The position numbers and the translations under genes were made by a program. 64,000 bases of DNA from an uncultured Paracoccaceae bacterium (GTDB taxonomy: Bacteria; Pseudomonadota; Alphaproteobacteria; Rhodobacterales; Rhodobacteraceae), in assembly GCA_947503765.1 (NCBI GenBank), contig CANNFA010000010.1, positions 1 through 64,000 on the forward strand, given 5' to 3'. Below the pieces are notes generated by a model that searched no databases, was not told where the DNA came from, and was given only the letters and a program-made list of their open reading frames with translations. Of the stretch, positions 5,869 to 30,996 are shown piece after piece. Within the stretch, counting starts at the first letter, position 1. Every line of letters starts with the position of its first letter.

Positions 5869-6249
5869 CTACTTCTTCTCCACCCGCTTGGGCGCGCCGG
5901 TGGACATGTCGGTGCCGACATAGGGCAGGCCGGCCTGTTTCCAGGCGCCGAACCCGCCGTCCATGTGGGTGGCGGGCTGCACGCCCTTGGCGGCGCATTT
6001 CTGCGCCACGTTGCCCGACCGCGCGCCGGAGCCGCAATAAAGCACCAGCCGCTTGCCCTGCTGCGACGGCAGCTTGTCGGCCTGGAAGAACGGCATCGGC
6101 AGAAGCAGCGCGCCCTCGACATGTTCGAACATGTATTCCTGCGGCGTGCGCACGTCGATCAGGGCGATCTCGCCCCTTTCATAGGCTTCCCAGACCTCTT
6201 CGGGGCTCCAGGTATCGATTGCCGCATCGCCGGTCGTTTCGGTTGTCAT
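5869..6249 (-). CDS. Rhodanese-domain sulfurtransferase
   Basis: 126 residues, a single rhodanese domain with the active-site loop CGSGARSG (cysteine 72) and the CH2A-like WSPEEVWEAYERGEIALIDVR start. No signal peptide, so cytoplasmic. It carries sulfane sulfur as a cysteine persulfide. The gene starts at an ATG with AAGGAG ahead of it and lies 12 bases after the persulfide-dioxygenase-like gene, so the two are co-transcribed; this pairing is typical of sulfide/persulfide detoxification, where the dioxygenase makes sulfite and the rhodanese transfers sulfane sulfur. Both would be controlled from the operator at 7196-7211. Confidence 0.92.
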   Translation of the reverse strand: MTTETTGDAAIDTWSPEEVWEAYERGEIALIDVRTPQEYMFEHVEGALLLPMPFFQADKLPSQQGKRLVLYCGSGARSGNVAQKCAAKGVQPATHMDGGFGAWKQAGLPYVGTDMSTGAPKRVEKK

Positions 6250-6261
6250 CGCATCGCTCCT

Positions 6262-7158
6262 TCAGAACTTGTTGGCCGGGATCTTGAAGTAATGGCTGCC
6301 ATCGGCTTCCGGCTCGGGCAGGCGGCCGCCGCGCAGGTTGACTTGCAGCGCGAACAGCATCCGGTCCGGCAGGTCGAGCGTGGCGTCGCGCGCGTCGCGC
6401 AGGGCCACATATTCGGCCTCGGACACGCCGCCGCCGACATGGGTGTTGTGCGCGCGGTGCTCGGCCACCGTCGCCTCCCAGGCGGGATCCTCGCGGTCGC
6501 CGACGGGCGGATAATCGTGGCCGATGAACAGGCGGGTGTCTTCGGGCAGCGACAGGATTTCCTGGAGCGAGCGGTACAGCTCAACCGAAGAGCCGCCGGG
6601 GAAATCGGCGCGCGACGTACCGGCATCGACATGCATGAAGGTGTCATGCACGAAAGCGGCATCGCCCACGACATAGGTGATCGAGCCCAGCGTATGACCG
6701 GGCGACAGTATCACCCGCACGTCCAGATCGCCGATGCGGAACGTGTCGCCATGCGCGAACAGGCGGTCGAAATCGCGGTCCGGATCATAGGCGCCGGGCG
6801 TGTGGTAAAGCGATTCCCACAGCGTGCCGATCTCGCGCACCTTCTCGCCGATGGCGGTAGGCGCGCCGGTCTGCTGCTTCAGCCAGGCCGACGCCATGAG
6901 GTGATCTGCATGCGGGTGGGTGTCGAGGATCCACTGAACCTCCAGCCCTTCGCGCCGCACGAAATCGAGGATCTCCTGCGCGCTGTCGGTGCGGGTCCGG
7001 GCATGGGCCGGGTCGAAATCCAGCACCACGTCGATCAGTGCCGCCTTCTTGGTGGCCTCGTCGATGGCGACATACTGGCAGGAGCCGGTGGCCTCTTCGT
7101 AGAACCCGACGACCCGGGGCGATCCGGGGCCGCCGGAGGGGCTTTCGCGTGTGAACAT
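6262..7158 (-). CDS. MBL-fold hydrolase, persulfide dioxygenase-like (ETHE1/Blh group)
   Basis: 298 residues from the ATG at 7158, chosen because AAGGTGAGG stands just upstream and because a more distal in-frame GTG (7191) falls inside the predicted -10 box. The metal-binding motif THPHADHL is near residue 80, with SPGHTLGS and VHDTFMHVDAG further on; these fit ETHE1/Blh mononuclear-iron persulfide dioxygenases rather than lactamases. It would oxidise glutathione or protein persulfide to sulfite. It leads a two-gene operon with a rhodanese. Close families (glyoxalase II) are possible, but the rhodanese neighbour and the sulfide-type operator favour persulfide oxidation. Confidence 0.88.
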   Translation of the reverse strand: MFTRESPSGGPGSPRVVGFYEEATGSCQYVAIDEATKKAALIDVVLDFDPAHARTRTDSAQEILDFVRREGLEVQWILDTHPHADHLMASAWLKQQTGAPTAIGEKVREIGTLWESLYHTPGAYDPDRDFDRLFAHGDTFRIGDLDVRVILSPGHTLGSITYVVGDAAFVHDTFMHVDAGTSRADFPGGSSVELYRSLQEILSLPEDTRLFIGHDYPPVGDREDPAWEATVAEHRAHNTHVGGGVSEAEYVALRDARDATLDLPDRMLFALQVNLRGGRLPEPEADGSHYFKIPANKF

Positions 7159-7190
7159 GTGCCTCACCTTTTCGGTATTCGGTTCGGCCA

Positions 7191-7218
7191 CACATATTCT
7201 GCCAGAAGAATGTGTAAA
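7191..7218 (-). promoter_or_regulatory. Predicted promoter with SqrR/BigR-like operator ATTC-N8-GAAT
   Basis: On the minus strand, TTTACA (7218-7213) and TATGTG (7196-7191) are separated by 16 bases, a plausible sigma-70 promoter about 30 bases before the persulfide-dioxygenase start. Between and across these hexamers lies ATTC (7196-7199), eight bases, GAAT (7208-7211), embedded in a wider imperfect palindrome ACACAT...ATGTGT. ATTC-N8-GAAT is the published recognition pattern of the sulfide-responsive repressor SqrR of Rhodobacter and is close to BigR sites. Position over the promoter predicts repression relieved by persulfides. The regulator gene itself is not in this window. Confidence 0.72.
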
Positions 7219-7221
7219 GGG

Positions 7222-8406
7222 TCAGGCCCCGGATTCGACGATCGCCCTGGCAAGGATCGGCACAGTCTTCGCGTTCAGCCCGGCGATGTTGATGCGGCTG
7301 TCGCCGACCATGTAGATGCCGTTCTGCTCGCGCATCGTCTCTACCTGCTCGGGTGTCAGGCCCAGCCGGCTGAACATGCCGCGATGCTGCGCGACAAAGC
7401 CGAAGCGGTCCGACCCGGTCAGGCGGCGCAGTTCGTTCGCCAGTTGCTCGCGCAGGGCGAGCATGCCCTGCCGCATCTCCTCCAGCTCGGCCTGCCAGTC
7501 GGCGCGCAGCGCGTCATCGGCTAGGATCATCGACACAAGCCGCGCCCCGTGATCGGGCGGGAACGAGAAGTTCTGCCGGTTGATATGGTTCAGGTTGCCC
7601 TGGGCGATGGGCGTTTTCGCGGCATCGCGCTGCACCGCCATCAGCACGCCGGCGCGTTCGCGGTACACACCGAAATTCTTGGAACAGGAGGCCGCGATCA
7701 GCACTTCGGGGCAGGTGGAGGCGACATGGCGGGTGCCGGCGGCGTCCGCCTCCAGCCCGTCGCCGAAGCCTTGGTAGGCGATGTCGATCATCGGCAGCGC
7801 GCCGCGTTCGTTCAGCAGGTCGGCCACCGTGCCGAATTGCGTCAGGTTCAGGTTGGCGCCGGTCGGGTTGTGGCAGCAGCCGTGCAGCAGCACCACGTCG
7901 CCCGGCTTCACCGCGCCCAGATCGGCGATCATCCCGTCGAAATCGACGGCGCAGGTCGCATCGTCGAAATAGCGGTATTCGCGCATGGGGATGCCCATGT
8001 GCTTCAGGATCGACAGGTGGTTCGGCCAGGTCGGCTGCGACGCCCAGACGGTCACGTCCGGGTTGGCCATGCGCGCCAGATCGAACGCCTGCCGCACCGC
8101 GCCGGTGCCGCCCGGCGTGGCGGCGGCGGCGACGCATTCGGCCGGGACGGCATCGCCCAGCACCAGCGCGCGCATCCCGCCGGTAAAGCCTGGATCACCC
8201 GCCAGCCCGGTATAGGACTTGGTCGTCTCGGTCTCCCAAAGCTGTTTCTCGGCGGCCTTCACGGCGCGCATCACCGGGGTGACGCCTTCGGCATTCTTGT
8301 AGACGCCGACGCCCAGATCCACCTTGGTCTCGCGCGGGTCGGCCTTGTAAAGTTCCATCAGCATCAGGATCTTGTCCTTCGGCTGGTCTTTCAGCTGTTC
8401 AAGCAT
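7222..8406 (-). CDS. Class I aromatic/aspartate aminotransferase (TyrB/AspC type)
   Basis: 394 residues. The N-terminus DKILMLMELYKADPRETKVDLGVGVYK and the PLP-lysine region ASCSKNFGVYRERAG are characteristic of the class I-alpha group (AspC/TyrB), and GCCHNPTGANL is the expected substrate-site stretch. It would interconvert aspartate, tyrosine or phenylalanine with their keto acids, using 2-oxoglutarate. Length matches the family. It sits alone between the persulfide operon and an acetyltransferase; the 30-base gap to the former includes the operator region. Aspartate versus aromatic preference cannot be read from the sequence with confidence. Confidence 0.92.
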   Translation of the reverse strand: MLEQLKDQPKDKILMLMELYKADPRETKVDLGVGVYKNAEGVTPVMRAVKAAEKQLWETETTKSYTGLAGDPGFTGGMRALVLGDAVPAECVAAAATPGGTGAVRQAFDLARMANPDVTVWASQPTWPNHLSILKHMGIPMREYRYFDDATCAVDFDGMIADLGAVKPGDVVLLHGCCHNPTGANLNLTQFGTVADLLNERGALPMIDIAYQGFGDGLEADAAGTRHVASTCPEVLIAASCSKNFGVYRERAGVLMAVQRDAAKTPIAQGNLNHINRQNFSFPPDHGARLVSMILADDALRADWQAELEEMRQGMLALREQLANELRRLTGSDRFGFVAQHRGMFSRLGLTPEQVETMREQNGIYMVGDSRINIAGLNAKTVPILARAIVESGA

Positions 8407-8427
8407 GGGTCGGCCTTTCCTGTACGG

Positions 8428-8994
8428 TCAGTCGGGAAACCGCGCCGGGTCGCGGTCGCGCGTCAGCACGCGGGTCCGGTCCTCGCGCCGCACGACCTCG
8501 AAGCCCACCTTCTGGTAGAGCGCGAGCGCGCGGGGATGGTCCAGCGTGCAGGTGTTCACGGTCATTCGTTCGGTGCCGGGCATGTCCCAGGCGCCCAGAA
8601 CGGCGGTCTTCAGCAGCCAGGTTCCCAGCCCGCTTCCCACCGCCTCGGGCACCAGCCCGAAATAGGCCAGCTCCACCGTGCCGGCCTCGCGGGCGTCGAG
8701 CAGGTAGAACCCGTGCGGCCACCCGGCGCGGTGCAGCGTCCACAGCGTCACGCCGGGATCGTCCAGCGTTTCGCGCAGTTCTGCCTCCGGCACGGCATGG
8801 ATGTCTTCCCAGGAATATTCGCGGCCCACCGCGTCATAGAGCGACAGCAGGTACCAGACGGGCGGCGTTTCCGCCGCGATCAGGCTTGCGGGGCGACCGG
8901 CCGGTTGCGGCGGGTGCGGCCATGTCGGCCGCGCGGTCATCTCGAGAAAGGTGACGGTATAGGCGACTTCGTCTCCGGCCCTGGCGCGCATCAT
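8428..8994 (-). CDS. GNAT family N-acetyltransferase
   Basis: 188 residues from the ATG at 8994, chosen because it overlaps the stop of sseA by the ATGA arrangement. The GNAT core appears as [21 protein letters not shown] (acetyl-CoA binding V-x-x-x-x-x-G-x-G form) followed by [21 protein letters not shown]. It belongs to the plain GNAT superfamily, whose members acetylate small amines, antibiotics or protein N-termini; the substrate cannot be told. It is co-transcribed with the 3-mercaptopyruvate sulfurtransferase upstream. Confidence 0.85.
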
Positions 8995-9842
8995 CCGGTC
9001 TCCACCTTGAGATCTCCATACATGCCCCATTCGGACCACGACCCGTCATAGACCGAATGGCGGTCATGGCCGAGCCGCTCCAGCGCCAGATCGACGATCC
9101 CCGCCGTGACGCCAGATCCGCAGGTGGAAATCACCGGCTTGCGCAGATCGACGCCGGCGGCGTCGAAGGCCGCGCGCAGGCCCTGTTCGTCCTTCATCGT
9201 GCCGTCCGGGTTCAGAAGCTGCGCGTAATGCACGTTGCGCGAGCCGGGGATATGGCCCGAGCGCAGGCCAGCGCGCGGCTCCGGCGCCTCGCCGCGGAAC
9301 CGGGCGGGGCCGCGGGCATCCACGATCTCGTGGTCGCGCAGCTTGGCGGCGGCGGCGACCTGGGTCACGTCGCGCACGAGGTGGTTCTGCACGGACACGG
9401 TGATGTGCCGGTCGCGCATCAGGGGGGGCATGTCCTCGACCGGGCGCCCCTCGGCCTGCCATTTGGGAAAACCGCCATCCAGCACGGCGATGTCGGTCTT
9501 GCCCATCAGGCGGAACAGCCACCACACGCGCGCGGCGGAAAACAGCCCGGCGCCGTCATAGACCACCACCTGATGCCCGTCGCCGACGCCCATCGCGCGC
9601 ATCCGGCTGATGAACTTTTCCGGCGGCGGCGCCATGTGCGGCAGGTCGGAGCGCGCATCGCTCAGCGCGTCGATGTCGAAAAACCGCGCGCCGGGGATGT
9701 GGGCGGCGTCGTATTCGGCGCGGCCGTCGCGGCCCATGTCGGGCAGGTACCACGACCCGTCGAGGATCCGCAGATCGGGATCGTCCATGTGCCGTGCCAG
9801 CCACTCGGTCGAGACCAGCGTTTTCGGGTCGTCCTGTGCCAT
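8991..9842 (-). CDS. sseA: 3-Mercaptopyruvate sulfurtransferase (two-domain rhodanese)
   Basis: 283 residues with two rhodanese repeats. The first holds [20 protein letters not shown] and [10 protein letters not shown]; the second holds [18 protein letters not shown] and the catalytic loop CGSGVTAG at STCGSGVTA. The CGSG(V/I)T loop, rather than CRxGKx, marks mercaptopyruvate sulfurtransferases. The enzyme moves sulfur from 3-mercaptopyruvate to thiophilic acceptors, linking cysteine breakdown to sulfane sulfur. It lies about 1.8 kb from the persulfide dioxygenase/rhodanese operon, with its own start, and is coupled to the following acetyltransferase gene. Confidence 0.93.
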
Positions 9843-29757: not shown

Positions 29758-30966
29758 TTACTCTGCCGGGACGGCCGGTGCCGCGGCCGGTCTGCCGAAA
29801 TGCTGGCGGTTGAGCCGAAGCACAAGCCAGACCATCCCGAACTGGAAGGCGATGGCGATTGCCGTCAGCGTCCAGTACGCGGCCGAGAACTGTGCCAGCA
29901 TGTCGGACTCGACCAGACCCTTGTTGATCCAGAATTGCAGCATCACGCTCATCCCGACGCCGGGGCAGACCAGCGCGTAGGATCCGGGCGAGGTTTCGGT
30001 GCCGAACACGAAGCTGCGGAAATAGCCCTGCCGGCGCAGCACCAGCATTCCGAGCAGCAGGAAGATCACCTGCACCGCGACCAGCCGCGACAGGAAGACC
30101 AGCGTGTCAGCGGCCTGGTCCTGGGCCGCAAAGGCGGTGTGCAGCCCGTGATCCTGGCGCAGGAACATGATCCCCAGAACCGTCAGAAGCGGCACGATGA
30201 TCATCAGGGTCGGCCCGGATTCGCGCGCGGTGCCGTAGTGCAGCATCGAGTTGAAGCCGGTGATCGCCGCCACCGTGGCGTAAATGATCGAGGCGAATCC
30301 GAAGAAGGTCGACCCGATCAGAGAGATGCCCTGCACCAGCGGCGCGGCGCTCATCGCGGCGGGGGCGGCAAAGCCGACGGCCACCATCGCCAGCGCGAAG
30401 GCCGGCAGCAGCTGGGCAAAGCTGTTATGCGCGGTCACGTCGAACACGCCGCCCTTGGTCAGAACGCGGCCCAGAAAGTTGCCGATCATGTAAAGCGCCA
30501 TGCCGCCGATGATCGCAAAGCCGATCATCGCCAGCGGGAACAGGTACTCGACCACGCTCCACAGCCCCGGCACGAAGACGAGGCCAAGCATGAAGCCGCC
30601 ATTGACGCCCATGGCCAGCGGCATCGCCAGAAGCTGCGATTCGCCGTTGGTGCTGCGCAGTTTGCGATACGCCTCGGTCTGGCGGAAGGCGCGGTACTGG
30701 CCGAGATTCCACAGCAGCGACTTGTAATGCACGAAGGCCATCGCGGCGATGCCGGCCATGGCGATCACGATCCCGACCTGAAGCGCCGGGCTGCCGGTCG
30801 CGAGGGCGGCCATGATGTCCTCGAAGACCGGGACCGACTTGCCGGGATGCGGCACCCAGAACATCAGGTACATGAAGAAGGTGACGATCAGGCCGCCGGC
30901 ACCGAGCGCGCCGAGGAAATAGAGCGGCGAATAGGTGTCCGCCGGGCGGGAGACGGGATGGGACAT
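29758..30966 (-). CDS. Multi-spanning membrane protein, TsoY-like, with sulfide-type operator
   Basis: 402 residues with about ten predicted helices. The pattern PLYFLGALGAGGLIVTFFMYLMFWVP, SLLWNLGQYRAFRQTEAYRKLRSTNGE, CPGVGMSVMLQFWIN and a conserved Cys in LVCPGVGM resembles a Rhodobacterales-rich family I associate with the name TsoY, some of whose members use selenocysteine; this recall is not verified. Function is unknown. The promoter overlaps ATTC-N8-GAAT, the SqrR/BigR pattern also found before the persulfide dioxygenase operon at 7.2 kb, so a role in sulfur or persulfide handling is inferred. A terminator follows. Confidence 0.6.
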   Translation of the reverse strand: MSHPVSRPADTYSPLYFLGALGAGGLIVTFFMYLMFWVPHPGKSVPVFEDIMAALATGSPALQVGIVIAMAGIAAMAFVHYKSLLWNLGQYRAFRQTEAYRKLRSTNGESQLLAMPLAMGVNGGFMLGLVFVPGLWSVVEYLFPLAMIGFAIIGGMALYMIGNFLGRVLTKGGVFDVTAHNSFAQLLPAFALAMVAVGFAAPAAMSAAPLVQGISLIGSTFFGFASIIYATVAAITGFNSMLHYGTARESGPTLMIIVPLLTVLGIMFLRQDHGLHTAFAAQDQAADTLVFLSRLVAVQVIFLLLGMLVLRRQGYFRSFVFGTETSPGSYALVCPGVGMSVMLQFWINKGLVESDMLAQFSAAYWTLTAIAIAFQFGMVWLVLRLNRQHFGRPAAAPAVPAE

Positions 30967-30980
30967 GGCAGGCTCCGTTC

Positions 30981-30996
30981 ATTCATATTGATGAAT
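30981..30996 (-). promoter_or_regulatory. SqrR/BigR-like operator ATTC-N8-GAAT before the membrane protein
   Basis: ATTC (30981-30984), eight bases, GAAT (30993-30996); the arms extend to ATTCAT-ATTG-ATGAAT, a perfect 6-base inverted repeat. It begins 15 bases before the start codon and abuts the AT-rich hexamer TATATA (30997-31002), so binding would block the promoter. The same spaced pattern occurs at 7196-7211 before the persulfide dioxygenase/rhodanese operon. Confidence 0.7.

Follow-up and report, generated by a model that had tools for sequence, protein, structure and literature searches.

Results

Persulfide dioxygenase-rhodanese locus

The window, by which we mean the whole 64,000-nucleotide stretch of DNA analyzed here, encodes on its minus strand a single-domain persulfide dioxygenase (PDO) of the ETHE1/Blh type (6262-7158, PF00753), followed on the same strand by a single-domain rhodanese as the second gene of the pair (5869-6249, PF00581). 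The PDO start at ATG 7158 is supported by the N-terminal pattern MF(T/R).ESPS.., which is also found in three genus relatives. There are 12 PDB matches to the PDO, including 4ysk, BpPRF 5ve3, and human ETHE1 4chl, and the best of them is 9g8t, an entry named only by its fold; the protein belongs to the metallo-beta-lactamase family near solved PDOs, with persulfide oxidation predicted from its sequence. Identity with the bifunctional Blh-type fusion was ruled out by the score against the Blh fusion model NF040641, which is 418 bits and below the cut-off of 625, and by the match covering profile positions 141 to 423 only. These family and PDB matches confirm the genes of the persulfide dioxygenase/rhodanese pair named in an earlier note on this DNA, as predicted functions.

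The 63-nt gap between the stop codon of the upstream gene and the PDO ATG (7159-7221) contains ATTCTGCCAGAAGAAT at 7196-7211 (unstranded), 37 nt upstream of the ATG. This ATTC-N8-GAAT core, with a matrix score of 19.3, is the site predicted for SqrR at the PDO-rhodanese pair and lies within an extended imperfect inverted repeat (7192-7215, unstranded), in whose outer arms 7192-7194 pair with 7213-7215 and the unpaired 7195/7212 form the single mismatch. The SqrR-type pattern that the same note had claimed is therefore present, and it is identical to the deduced RcSqrR site published as ATTC-N8-GAAT (PMC9774250). The operator overlaps two promoter-like hexamers recognized by eye on the minus strand (7191-7218), TTTACA (7218-7213) and TATGTG (7196-7191) with a 16-nt spacer. 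The overlap had been described as a good promoter under the operator; the overlapping hexamers stand, but "good" does not, since they match 8 of 12 sigma-70 consensus bases as counted by eye, which is weak, and a sigma-70 scan of 7000-7400 returned no sites. A CTTTACA next to the half-site is common to the three nearest relatives aligned and is missing from the other five in the alignment.

Upstream of the gap and immediately preceding the PDO, 7222-9842 encode an aminotransferase and a 3-mercaptopyruvate sulfurtransferase, which together may form a route from cysteine to persulfide. The former is an aromatic amino acid transaminase on the minus strand (7222-8406) that lies outside the conserved unit.

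Conservation of the operator before PDO

How much weight can a short palindrome carry? By the gap's own composition, about 0.0008 exact sites would be expected in the 63 nt by chance. The 64-kb window holds 2 motif matches where 0.59 would be expected, and at least 2 were also reached in 14 of 100 shuffles, so the window count by itself is weak evidence. The real evidence for the operator is its conservation across relatives, of which 175 were found; the best 80, all of them named PDO loci, were examined. An exact ATTC-N8-GAAT lies less than 100 nt from the PDO in 35 of the 80 loci, and every other spacer (2 to 7 and 9 to 16 nt) occurs there in 0 or 1 locus; elsewhere upstream in the PDO loci, 2 of 2,146 windows contain the N8 motif. 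The reverse order, GAAT-N8-ATTC, was found in 5/80 loci and its N12 form in 1, with the remaining spacers tried giving 0. A reversed pattern was also considered as a genome-wide control (21 motif versus 2 reversed matches) and was discarded, since a scarcity of CTTA/TAAG could have unrelated causes.

A scoring matrix was trained on the 35 exact PDO sites of the 80 loci, which makes the PDO counts obtained with it partly circular; with this reservation, 51/80 loci have a score of at least 15 before the PDO, and the lowest leave-one-out score among the training sites is 15.8. The remaining 29 loci have no site of at least 15, and 19 of these are in genomes with an SqrR match of at least 100 bits. 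A rhodanese relative lies downstream of the PDO in 59/80 loci, and the operator tracks this partner: sites of at least 15 precede the PDO in 49 of 59 loci with the rhodanese versus 2 of 21 without it (Fisher P = 2.6e-9, uncorrected for descent), and for exact sites the numbers are 33/59 versus 2/21 (P = 2e-4, likewise uncorrected). Within the DNA examined, the aminotransferase is near the PDO in just 10/80 loci and the mercaptopyruvate sulfurtransferase in just 9/80, so the operator belongs to the PDO rather than to these two genes. The operator is also present in 44/63 PDO loci whose genomes have an SqrR match of at least 100 bits versus 2/9 below that score (Fisher P = 0.009, uncorrected for descent). 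This co-occurrence is weakly informative because nearly all genomes searched have an SqrR homologue, namely, 38/38 and 32/33 genomes of two sets of relatives (E 1e-12).

SqrR homologue encoded on another contig

The genome has 5 HTH_5 (ArsR-type) hits, none of them on C10, the contig of the window, in agreement with the reported absence of a repressor gene from the window. A genome search for SqrR/BigR proteins found one SqrR homologue on contig C6 (C6:49125-49526; L021:4626-5027; minus strand), assigned through HTH_5 and PDB matches, which bears out the unlinked regulator suggested in the earlier note. This protein matches PDB chain 13ct_A with an E value of 1.6e-37 and 68% identity over 94 amino acids and also matches 6o8l-6o8o, entries titled just "ArsR family"; we take 13ct_A and 6o8l-6o8o to be SqrR of Rhodobacter capsulatus. 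The sensor cysteines Cys64 and Cys130 and the segment RQAAVSQQL are invariant in 5 aligned sequences. Against the BigR equivalog model NF040642, the homologue scores 93.1 bits, below the curated cut-off of 155; judged by these comparisons, the C6 regulator is SqrR-like and falls short of a BigR equivalog assignment.

It is the single SqrR-like protein among the 5 HTH_5 hits, HTH_5 being the ArsR-type family covered by the search. Two of the other four hits were scanned against the BigR model, one giving 28.6 bits and the other having no score listed. The sqrR neighborhood within 5 kb contains no sulfide genes as judged by eye, and a second PDO operon is 8.6 kb away. Autoregulation of sqrR was considered and rejected: the site 109 nt upstream (17.8) is not conserved, with a site in 1 of 20 sqrR loci, 352 nt away.

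Predicted sites before other genes

The 3.98-Mb genome contains 21 exact ATTC-N8-GAAT matches, several of them within long reading frames and with low matrix scores. A looser pattern gave 125 matches, and the regulon list was drawn among the matches listed and is hence incomplete. Candidates were 35 places chosen by two patterns only and then scored with the matrix; 9 of them reach at least 16.9, and 6 of these 9 precede sulfide-related or anion-transport genes. For background, 5 of 1,811 windows of 220 nt drawn at random from the PDO loci score at least 15, and simulated sequence with the dinucleotides of the window yields, per 4 Mb, 4 scores of at least 16 and 1 of at least 18.

The site before trxC scores 25.7 and lies 18 nt upstream of the ATG; a site of at least 15 is present there in 12/18 relatives' genomes, including one at 19.1 (L204). 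Another (C6:58160-58175; L189:2161-2176; score, 22.2) occupies the gap between cydA, whose start is 179 nt away, and an operon for a YgaP-like TM protein, PDO2, and SulP, whose start is 54 nt away. The small protein gene ahead of PDO2 matches PF11127, the YgaP-like TM family, with 81.9 bits. The second operator in the window, at 30981-30996 (unstranded; score, 20.6), precedes tsoY and reaches at least 15 in 12/14 genomes. In several relatives, two overlapping or tandem sites are seen before tsoY. On contig C11, a site (L190:2767-2782; score, 17.2) lies 23 nt upstream of the ATG of sqr, which encodes a human-type sulfide:quinone reductase (SQR), closest to human mitochondrial SQR; its conservation is patchy, with at least 15 in 3/10 orthologues, a fourth at 14.6 (L249), and 0/10 distant homologues. 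The site before a SLAC1-family gene scores 16.9 and lies 12 nt upstream of the likely ATG, a longer reading frame beginning inside the operator site; it reaches at least 15 in 4/4 genus members having the gene and in 0/9 other genomes. Overall, judging from these predicted sites, the sulfide-defense genes that SqrR appears to regulate are scattered and include the one for the TsoY membrane protein.

No clear sulfide gene accompanies three of the nine best sites in the genome (C1:793608, C3:120592, and C5:243965) or C8:1762 (16.0). Near C1:793608 (L028:3109-3124; score, 23.0) are an ABC transporter gene, a tRNA-Arg gene, and a SodC-like protein, the last recognized by eye. C3:120592 (L014:1501-1516; score, 18.9) overlaps the apparent start of a gene preceding an RND-efflux-like protein, again by eye.

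Predicted fold of TsoY

The tsoY gene (29758-30966, minus strand) encodes a membrane protein of the TsoY family (NF047644, 506 bits), a family that includes selenoprotein members. The protein matches no Pfam family at E 0.001, the SLAC1 profile included, and its profile finds no match among PDB sequences up to E 1. An AlphaFold2 model was built from 14 sequences (pLDDT, 80.6; pTM, 0.83). In a Foldseek search with the model, the top 16 rows read as SLAC1/TehA type, the best having an E value of 4.8e-3 and a probability of 1.00, and no row passed E 0.001; 4ycr and the 9m7 entries, whose titles carry no protein name, are read here as TehA and as plant SLAC/SLAH channels. VIA-align, which re-examined the matches supplied by Foldseek, gave a best Z score of 27.9 with an rmsd of 3.5 over 316 residues, and the 22 rows of SLAC1/TehA type span Z 23.4 to 27.9, the next row being at 13.3. 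Identity to SLAC1/TehA structures is 8 to 12% in the structural alignments. TsoY thus resembles SLAC1/TehA anion channels in its predicted fold and differs from them in lacking a Pfam or PDB sequence match. On the strength of the model, a SLAC1/TehA anion-channel fold is well supported for TsoY, and this predicted fold suggests that the protein exports sulfite or a related anion, with sulfite proposed because tsoY stands beside the PDO in the regulon. A literature search by the name TsoY found no described function in the partial texts retrieved.

Discussion

Operator reading and alternatives

The site at 7196-7211 is very probably the operator of an SqrR repressor whose gene lies on another contig, since the N8 repeat is conserved, an SqrR homologue is present, and predicted sites precede other sulfide genes. 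Counting against this reading are the 29 PDO loci below 15, the patchy sqr site, the SLAC1-family site missing outside the genus, the three top sites with no clear sulfide gene, the low matrix scores at E. coli ygaV and R. leguminosarum blh-bigR, and the reported lack of SqrR control over PDO in R. capsulatus. That the palindrome is a chance match is hardly credible: the 21 exact matches in the genome, several in long reading frames with low scores, show that such matches do arise, but spacing and position are fixed across genera, and simulated sequence reaches 18 once per 4 Mb against 19.3 at the PDO site, so conservation across relatives refutes chance. An equally improbable reading takes the site as a terminator or RNA hairpin of the aminotransferase gene, just past whose stop codon (7222) it lies; against this, the scan contained no terminator-like site, the arms of the core consist of ATTC/GAAT, the aminotransferase accompanies 10 of the 80 loci whereas the operator at 15 or above is found in 51, and the same motif precedes unrelated genes.

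Another question is which protein reads the operator. Many related genomes have two SqrR-like proteins, the second mostly 55 to 65% identical, and high scores also occur outside the present gene set. Scanning five plasmid loci with SqrR-like genes gave a site of at least 15 in 2 and nothing of at least 15 in the other 3. In a Ruegeria sox cluster with an SqrR/SoxR-like gene, the gap from soxX to a thioredoxin gene scores 27.1, the soxA-soxB gap 20.0, the gap from ccdA to its neighboring gene 17.8, and the region before the SqrR/SoxR-like regulator 14.9; the gap sites of this cluster also speak for the operator reading. A Rhodobacter sox cluster scores 15.9 before soxX. In Paracoccus, SoxR binds the matching regions. 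SoxR is moreover close to SqrR, with a published identity of 53% (PMC10451225). Recognition of the operator by an unrelated factor, or by a different ArsR protein that senses sulfur (a SoxR/sHdrR-type paralogue), is nevertheless unlikely: a single SqrR-like protein stands among the 5 HTH_5 hits here, the two others scanned against BigR giving 28.6 bits or nothing listed, and the motif is identical to that of RcSqrR (PMC9774250) and precedes R. capsulatus trxC.

With SqrR as the reader, and by analogy with R. capsulatus, reduced SqrR would occupy the site near the gene start at low reactive sulfur and block transcription. Glutathione persulfide or polysulfide would then form a sulfur bridge between the two SqrR cysteines and release the protein from DNA, and PDO and rhodanese would be made. 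PDO would convert persulfide to sulfite and thiol, and the rhodanese would pass sulfane sulfur from one carrier to another. Reduction of the SqrR sulfur bridge by TrxC, whose gene has the same motif, would bring repression back, again as in R. capsulatus. SQR may supply persulfide to the pathway, TsoY and the SLAC1-family protein could export sulfite, and cytochrome bd may sustain respiration. A more specific picture is offered tentatively, and we give it somewhat less than an even chance: TsoY would be a SLAC1-fold anion exporter for PDO-made sulfite, induced through SqrR, and would belong together with PDO, rhodanese, SQR, and TrxC to a scattered regulon for sulfide oxidation resembling that of mitochondria.

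Comparison with published systems

Transcription of trxC in R. capsulatus reportedly rises about 22-fold with sulfide and without sqrR (PMC10044876), and the trxC primer in the same paper reads ATTCCGCAACGCGAAT, which places an exact site immediately upstream of the ATG. Our genome shares with the R. capsulatus SqrR regulon the ATTC-N8-GAAT motif, the two sensor cysteines, and trxC as a target, here a predicted one. It differs in that the PDO-rhodanese pair carries a predicted site, whereas the PDO, the PDO-rhodanese fusion, and CAT/MST of R. capsulatus are reported not to be SqrR regulated (PMC9995734). The wiring therefore differs from that in R. capsulatus, and the predicted sites indicate that SqrR control of PDO is not the same there as in many relatives. 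Beyond trxC, putative further targets here are tsoY and the genes flanking the cydA gap, at predicted sites; a literature search on PDO or TsoY under SqrR gave no such operator among the matches listed.

CstR is a CsoR-family protein. In Staphylococcus aureus, SQR, PDO, and sulfurtransferase genes are likewise under this persulfide-type regulator (PMC9995734), but they form a single operon there and are scattered here. The BigR-Blh operon of Xylella, Agrobacterium, and Rhizobium also places a persulfide/sulfide-type ArsR repressor over a sulfurtransferase/dioxygenase (PMC5823870), but here the regulator is unlinked, PDO and rhodanese are separate, and the rhodanese is of PF00581 instead of the DUF442 part of Blh. 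No matrix score reached 9 upstream of Rhizobium leguminosarum blh-bigR. A similar sequence is reported in the Escherichia coli ygaV footprint (PMC9774250); the best matrix score in the ygaV promoter is 9.1, counted as no site.

In Ruegeria pomeroyi, a pdo mutant reportedly accumulates sulfane sulfur to a higher level than a mutant lacking the enzymes of H2S oxidation and degrades less methanethiol than the wild type (PMC10936201). The predicted operator would connect a dioxygenase responsible for sulfane sulfur clearance in marine roseobacters with a defined sensor of persulfide. The TsoY family gains a predicted fold and a regulatory context, both directly testable. The operator itself is ordinary in kind, and the main use of the analysis is the outline of the SqrR regulon together with the lead on TsoY.

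A related repeat was also seen near the start of second-type PDO genes of relatives (loci L120, L122, L126, L127, L128, and L133), with scores of 12.6 to 15.3; instead of GAAT, its right half mostly shows NTATATG or CATATG, perhaps a variant half-site.
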